This document shows positions 6,384 to 6,553 of a stretch of 64,000 nt of DNA, piece by piece; the first letter of the stretch is position 1; each line of letters begins with the position of its first letter. The notes beneath the pieces are model-generated. The model saw only the letters and a list, made by a program, of their open reading frames with translations, was not told the origin of the DNA and ran no database searches. Location: positions 2,170,001 through 2,234,000 of the forward strand of contig NZ_CP151792.1 in the NCBI RefSeq assembly GCF_038446525.1. Reading direction: 5' to 3'. A program made the position numbers and the translations under genes. Origin of the DNA: Methanolobus sp. ZRKC5. GTDB taxonomy: Archaea > Halobacteriota > Methanosarcinia > Methanosarcinales > Methanosarcinaceae.

Positions 6384-6497
6384 CGCCGAGGTTGGGATTT
6401 GAACCCAAGCACTCCTCCCGGAGAAACCGGTCTCGAGCCGGTCGCGTATGGACTCCGCAGCTATTGCTGACGGATTAGTCCGCTCTGCCACCTCGGC
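6384..6497 (-). tRNA. tRNA-Ser(CGA) with an apparent D-arm intron
   Basis: The 7-bp acceptor stem is GCCGAGG/CCTCGGC, discriminator G at 6384, no encoded CCA. The T arm (TTGGG/CCCAA around TTCAAAT), a long variable arm (CTCC/GGAG) and the anticodon stem ACCGG/CCGGT with loop CTCGAGA give a class II tRNA; anticodon CGA is at 6433-6435, so serine. The gene is 114 nt, about 28 nt too long. The extra bases fall between the D loop and the 3' D-stem strand. Removing 6446-6473 leaves an 86-nt tRNA with a perfect GCA/TGC D stem. The insertion folds with exon 1: GGACT pairs with AGTCC, leaving 3-nt bulges AAT and ATA, as in a bulge-helix-bulge splice site. The tRNA call is firm; intron boundaries are inferred. 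Confidence 0.9.
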
Positions 6498-6553
6498 ACA
6501 TGGCACTTTGAGCTTGAAGGTCTTAATCTCTTAAAAAGGTAACGAGGTAATGT

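Follow-up and report, generated by a model that had tools for sequence, protein, structure and literature searches.

A predicted noncanonical intron in the D arm of the sole tRNA-Ser(CGA) gene of a Methanolobus genome, conserved across Methanosarcinia

The D arm of the only tRNA-Ser(CGA) gene read in the genome of Methanolobus sp. ZRKC5 very probably harbors a noncanonical bulge-helix-bulge intron that is spliced by proteins to give a normal tRNA-Ser. In the mechanism we propose, GGAC of exon 1 (nucleotides 18-20a) would pair with a GUCC close to the intron's 3' end, and the resulting 4-bp central helix would have a 3-nt bulge on either side, UAA and AUA. Cleavage at UA^A and at AU^A would fall to EndA, the splicing endonuclease, here a fused two-domain enzyme of the alpha'2 type. 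Ligation of the exons, which in archaea is the task of RtcB, would then yield an ordinary 86-nt tRNA-Ser reading UCG. The case is built on gene anatomy, conservation, covariation, an exact match to intronless orthologs and the enzyme type as judged by sequence; from these we infer transcription, cutting and ligation of the pre-tRNA.

The gene lies on the minus strand of the window (the whole 64,000-nt stretch of DNA that was analysed), and the 114-nt pre-tRNA is read from 6497 to 6384. Its parts are:

6384-6497, minus strand: tRNA-Ser(CGA) gene with its intron (pre-tRNA, leader and trailer excluded), from sequence reading and homologs
6476-6497, minus strand: exon 1, 22 nt, GCCGAGGTGGCAGAGCGGACTA, nucleotides 1-21, with the 3' end GGACUA, set by the intronless orthologs L087, L090 and L094
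6448-6475, minus strand: predicted intron, 28 nt, at position 21/22, which the sequence does not distinguish from 22/23, from the bulge rule and orthologs
6384-6447, minus strand: exon 2, 64 nt, nucleotides 22-73, with the 5' end ACGCG, from intronless orthologs and ARAGORN on the spliced form
6433-6435, minus strand: anticodon CGA, from sequence reading
6529-6536, minus strand: TATA-like box TTTTAAGA, 32-39 nt upstream of the tRNA, with similar boxes at homologs

The acceptor, anticodon, long variable and T arms are all intact, and the 28 extra nucleotides sit between GGCAGAGCGGACUA and ACGCG. ARAGORN in default mode and Rfam at its gathering threshold reported no tRNA in the window, a miss that we attribute to the D-arm insertion; a lax Rfam scan gave a single partial tRNA match of 21.8 bits. 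Once the 28 nt were deleted in silico, ARAGORN called an 86-nt tRNA-Ser(CGA), confirming the identity and the insertion given in the preliminary description. The tRNA is not otherwise perfect, as had been stated there, because the D-stem pair 12-23 (window 6488-6486 versus 6445-6443) is A.C, which may be a mismatch that the tRNA tolerates or may be corrected by C-to-U editing. The A.C pair is shared by Methanolobus and the intronless orthologs of other families (L087, L090, L094), but is A-U in ANME-2 and Methanomethylovorans. TATA-like boxes were found by a crude pattern upstream of 53 of 66 homologs. An intron that masks the gene from some standard tools may lead tRNA censuses to score Ser(CGA) as absent.

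A covariance search and T-arm patterns were applied to the genome, a single 3.05-Mb contig, and 54 tRNA genes were read. No second Ser(CGA) was found among these 54, and Pro(CGG) was the only expected tRNA missing from them; the set includes Ser(GCT), Ser(TGA), Ser(GGA) and Pyl. Introns are present in the genes for eMet, Tyr, Trp and Arg(TCG), the last being our own reading of L250, to which ARAGORN assigned another anticodon. All four are at the canonical position 37/38, and we saw no other noncanonical intron in the tRNA genes of this genome. Elsewhere in the genome, outside the window, are 3' fragments of tRNA-Glu, tRNA-Gly and tRNA-Val (two of the latter; L136, L139, L256, L257), looking like attachment-site remnants of integrated elements. 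The tRNA-Cys(GCA) genes have two very different sequences, one as a single copy (L015) and the other in three identical copies (L033-L035).

Comparison with relatives supports the noncanonical intron proposed in the preliminary description. A BLAST search of the gene against 60 relatives recovered the insertion at the orthologous site in all 26 other Methanolobus species, so that all 27 species searched carry an insertion there, and in several further genera and families of the order. In families f3 and f5 the same tRNA lacks the insertion and reads GGACTA-ACGCG across the junction (L087, L090, L094). Removing the insertion of the window by the bulge rule generates exactly this intronless junction; in silico excision therefore restores a normal tRNA, by both the tRNA-Ser(CGA) call and the ortholog junction. 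Together with the conserved splice residues and their compensatory substitutions, one gene per genome and the TATA-like box, this makes a noncanonical bulge-helix-bulge intron by far the best reading.

The predicted splice motif comprises:

6478-6481, minus strand: 5' strand of the central helix, GGAC, nucleotides 18-20a, paired in 95 of 95 distinct sequences
6450-6453, minus strand: 3' strand of the central helix, GUCC, intronic; GUCC, GUCU or GUUC in 95 of 95
6475-6477, minus strand: 5' bulge UAA, predicted cut UA^A, register from the U/C/A variation at 20b
6447-6449, minus strand: 3' bulge AUA, predicted cut AU^A, from comparison with relatives
6471-6474, minus strand: 5' strand of the inner helix, UCCG, from the fold and conservation
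6454-6457, minus strand: 3' strand of the inner helix, CGGA, from the fold and conservation

Conservation of the motif was assessed in 95 distinct sequences: Methanosarcinales and a GTDB-wide scan supplied 66, family f7 the other 29. All four central-helix pairs are kept in 95/95, with G.U variants at two of them, as are inner pairs 1-3, with compensatory change: inner pair 3 is C-G in 83 sequences, U-G in 3 and U-A in 9. The pattern used for the GTDB scan itself fixed some of the residues counted here as conserved; however, of the 43 introns that only BLAST had recovered, 41 fit it, and BLAST was also the source of the f7 set. Inner pairs 4 and 5 are kept in 66/93 (500 shuffles: mean 31, maximum 42) and 48/93 (shuffle maximum 41), exceeding every shuffle, where the shuffles take no account of kinship. 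The intron interior is free to vary: among Methanolobus introns of the same length, 14 of 17 interior columns are variable, versus 1 of 22 in exon 1 and 6 of 64 in exon 2. Lengths range from 17 to 47 nt, and the shortest (17 nt; L081, L085) is barely more than the splice motif.

The preliminary description had paired GGACT with AGTCC, leaving two 3-nt bulges. That pairing does form in the minimum-energy fold of the pre-tRNA (-51.7 kcal/mol, z -3.6), but the 5-bp helix is better read as the 4 bp GGAC:GUCC, with bulges UAA and AUA. The reason is that the first inner U-A pair never changes in the 95 sequences, whereas relatives may have U, C or A at nucleotide 20b: it is C or A in ten sequences of the Methanosarcinales side and A in most f7 sequences. 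The same variation bears on a shifted register of the same intron, which we consider improbable, with GACU:AGUC as the central helix, a flush outer helix GCG:CGC, and bulges AAU and CAUA; its mature tRNA would have a D loop longer by one or two nucleotides. A flush outer helix speaks for the shift, and GCG:CGC is present in the minimum-energy folds of many relatives. However, C or A at 20b breaks a U-A pair of the shifted helix, the 4-nt bulge is non-standard, and the product would not match the intronless orthologs; a cDNA junction GGACUAACGC would be incompatible with it.

Energy minimization alone does not settle the register. In the window sequence all four central pairs have probabilities of 0.93-0.96. 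The whole core is present in the minimum-energy folds of 17/65 full pre-tRNAs when unconstrained, and of 32/65 when the acceptor and anticodon stems are held. In the preferred 4-bp register no exon pair adjoins the 3-nt AUA bulge, for which reason we regard the 3' side of the motif as relaxed; the shifted register has an outer helix there with its 4-nt bulge. This relaxed 3' side, the A.C at 12-23 in the product and the frequent absence of the core from minimum-energy folds are the points against the intron reading.

That the insertion stays in the mature tRNA and merely enlarges its D arm is very improbable, although the inner hairpin is stable by itself and excision is deduced from sequence. 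G18 and G19 normally contact the T loop, and the GGAC:GUCC helix would bury both; we reject a retained extension on this ground and because orthologs without the intron exist. The conserved residues are, moreover, those of the splice motif and not of the hairpin interior. Least credible of all is a decaying pseudogene, with UCG codons served by tRNA-Ser(UGA). Ser(CGA) is dispensable in principle, since Methanococcales lack tRNA-CGA (PMC6000648), but the exons are near-invariant across Methanolobus and the class, and a TATA-like box and one intact gene per genome argue for function; a pseudogene beside a normal Ser(CGA) copy is excluded within the 54 tRNA genes read. We dismissed a group I or II self-splicing intron (28 nt versus a core of a few hundred nt, and no such Rfam match) and a guide RNA or other function within the intron, whose interior is unconserved.

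The predicted intron is not an isolated oddity within Methanosarcinales, as the preliminary description suggested, but appears to be old and is found across Methanosarcinia. An exact pattern scan of GTDB matched 56 contigs, assigned to Methanolobus, Methanococcoides, Methanohalophilus, Methanohalobium, Methanosalsum and Methanomethylovorans, to Methanosarcinaceae or Methanosarcinales without a genus name, to HMMV ANME-3 and an ANME-2 cluster, and to Argoarchaeum, other GoM-Arc1 lineages and one Methanothrix. When 238 genomes of the class were searched by BLAST, 44 more intron-bearing genomes came to light, those of family f7. We read f7 as Methanotrichaceae, since L197 is labelled Methanothrix and its pre-tRNA matches G221 at 100%. 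Presence in Methanosarcinaceae, ANME-2, GoM-Arc1 and f7 would place the origin of the intron at or before the base of Methanosarcinia, and this distribution, read directly rather than from a tree, suggests that the intron was later lost in f3 and f5.

Methanosarcina-like genomes (G036, G032, G027, G034) contain a Ser(CGA) that has no intron and belongs to a different lineage (GCCCAGGTAGTCTAGCGGTAGGGCG...CTCGAAA); the D arm of this tRNA in G036, G032 and G034 is similar to that of the genome's own Ser(GGA). A pattern search of the Methanosarcina-like genomes for an ortholog of the intron-bearing Ser(CGA) gave chance matches only. The similarity of the D arms suggests that the intron-bearing gene was replaced in this group. 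A different, intronless Ser(CGA) in the model genus Methanosarcina would explain why the intron was apparently overlooked. The sequences L206, L215, L216 and L224 from Methanosarcina-like genomes are of this different type, three of the four with the Ser(GGA)-like D arm.

The Ser(CGA) of f7 bears an additional insertion of 31-33 nt in the T loop, at 59/60, that begins with AUGGC after GGGUUCAAA and ends with CAGGAAAA before UCCC (L269-L298, L197). Its outer helix is the T stem and is flush. The central pairs U-A, U-A and C-G (UUC:GAA) are kept in 29/29. At the fourth central position A.G occurs in 25 sequences, A-U in three and G.G in one. In the inner helix, pairs 1 and 2 never vary, and 27/29 sequences retain pair 3. 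Removal of both insertions again gave a tRNA-Ser(CGA) call by ARAGORN, and a two-intron query matched 44 f7 genomes, 43 of them at full length. We take the T-loop insertion to be a probable second noncanonical intron of the Methanotrichaceae Ser(CGA).

A separate observation concerns three genomes of ANME-2 type (G056, G040, G052), in which an extra, often truncated Ser(CGA) lies beside the normal copy (L246, L247, L248, L249). The extra copies are broken, in either the anticodon arm or the T arm, by a conserved two-hairpin insert of about 58 nt (TCGAAAATCG..CGATTTTCTTATCTTCGGC..GCCTCAG) that directly precedes a G(C/T)TCGA site. Within the genomes searched the insert adjoins Ser(CGA) only, and it had no match in viral contigs.

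The genome's EndA is one 355-aa frame with two PF01974 domains; there is no further PF01974 match in the genome, and hence no second subunit gene was found. Nearly all relatives searched have a single EndA frame with two such domains. The best solved relative of the Methanolobus protein is the alpha'2 EndA of A. fulgidus. The FYG-LSL spacing is 9 residues here and 8 in wild-type A. fulgidus, against about 18 in 3p1y, an A. fulgidus protein bearing the crenarchaea-specific loop; wherever an EndA frame of a relative could be matched here, it shares the Methanolobus spacing. Judged by sequence, EndA is of the fused alpha'2 type and devoid of the crenarchaea-specific loop, which has been linked to broad specificity.

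Such an enzyme would not be expected to act here. According to reviews, alpha4 and alpha'2 endonucleases cleave canonical motifs only (PMC4033280, PMC4090602, PMC6379350). The alpha'2 type is classed as narrow, and efficient removal of relaxed motifs is ascribed only to (alpha-beta)2 and epsilon2, although A. fulgidus EndA handles a relaxed 37/38 motif within full-length pre-tRNA (PMC6379350). Korarchaeum is described as the sole alpha2 archaeon with noncanonical tRNA introns (PMC4033280), and euryarchaeal noncanonical cases as confined to three thermophilic methanogens (PMC3218864). A D-arm intron deeply conserved in a class where the members tested have an alpha'2 enzyme would be an exception to the published rule of enzyme and intron coevolution. 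Methanosaeta (Methanothrix) thermophila, we presume, might be one of those three thermophilic methanogens.

Tentatively, and with slightly less than even confidence, we propose that a narrow-specificity alpha'2 EndA, though devoid of the crenarchaeal loop, excises a noncanonical intron with a relaxed 3' site, that subunit type alone does not set which introns are allowed, that the tRNA body may contribute to recognition, and that one tRNA has retained the intron from roughly the time Methanosarcinia arose. The kind of intron is already known; its fixed presence in an alpha'2 clade appears unreported in the open papers searched, and GtRNAdb or tRNAscan-SE 2.0 tables may list it. The accessible portions of papers on a Methanolobus RNase Z, a tRNA-loss census and Methanocella mention no such intron.

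The canonical 37/38 introns of the same genome follow the same bulge-helix-bulge logic, and that of Arg(TCG), in our reading of L250, shares the AUA 3' bulge. They differ in their anticodon-loop site, and the outer helix of Arg(TCG) is flush with the bulge. Methanopyrus, Methanothermobacter and Korarchaeum are likewise exceptions outside Thermoproteota and Nitrososphaeria (PMC4033280, PMC3218864), but the Methanopyrus enzyme is (alpha-beta)2 and the alpha2 enzyme of Korarchaeum is said to bear the specific loop, neither of which holds for Methanolobus EndA. The noncanonical introns of Thermoproteota occur at 20/21, 22/23, 25/26, 59/60 and other positions (PMC4090602). The Methanolobus intron resembles them in its 4-bp central helix, 3-nt bulges, short length, known site (22/23) and one relaxed side. 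It differs in having a methanogen host and an alpha'2 EndA without the crenarchaea-specific loop, and, whereas Thermoproteota have many mobile introns, here a single tRNA species carries an intron fixed class-wide.
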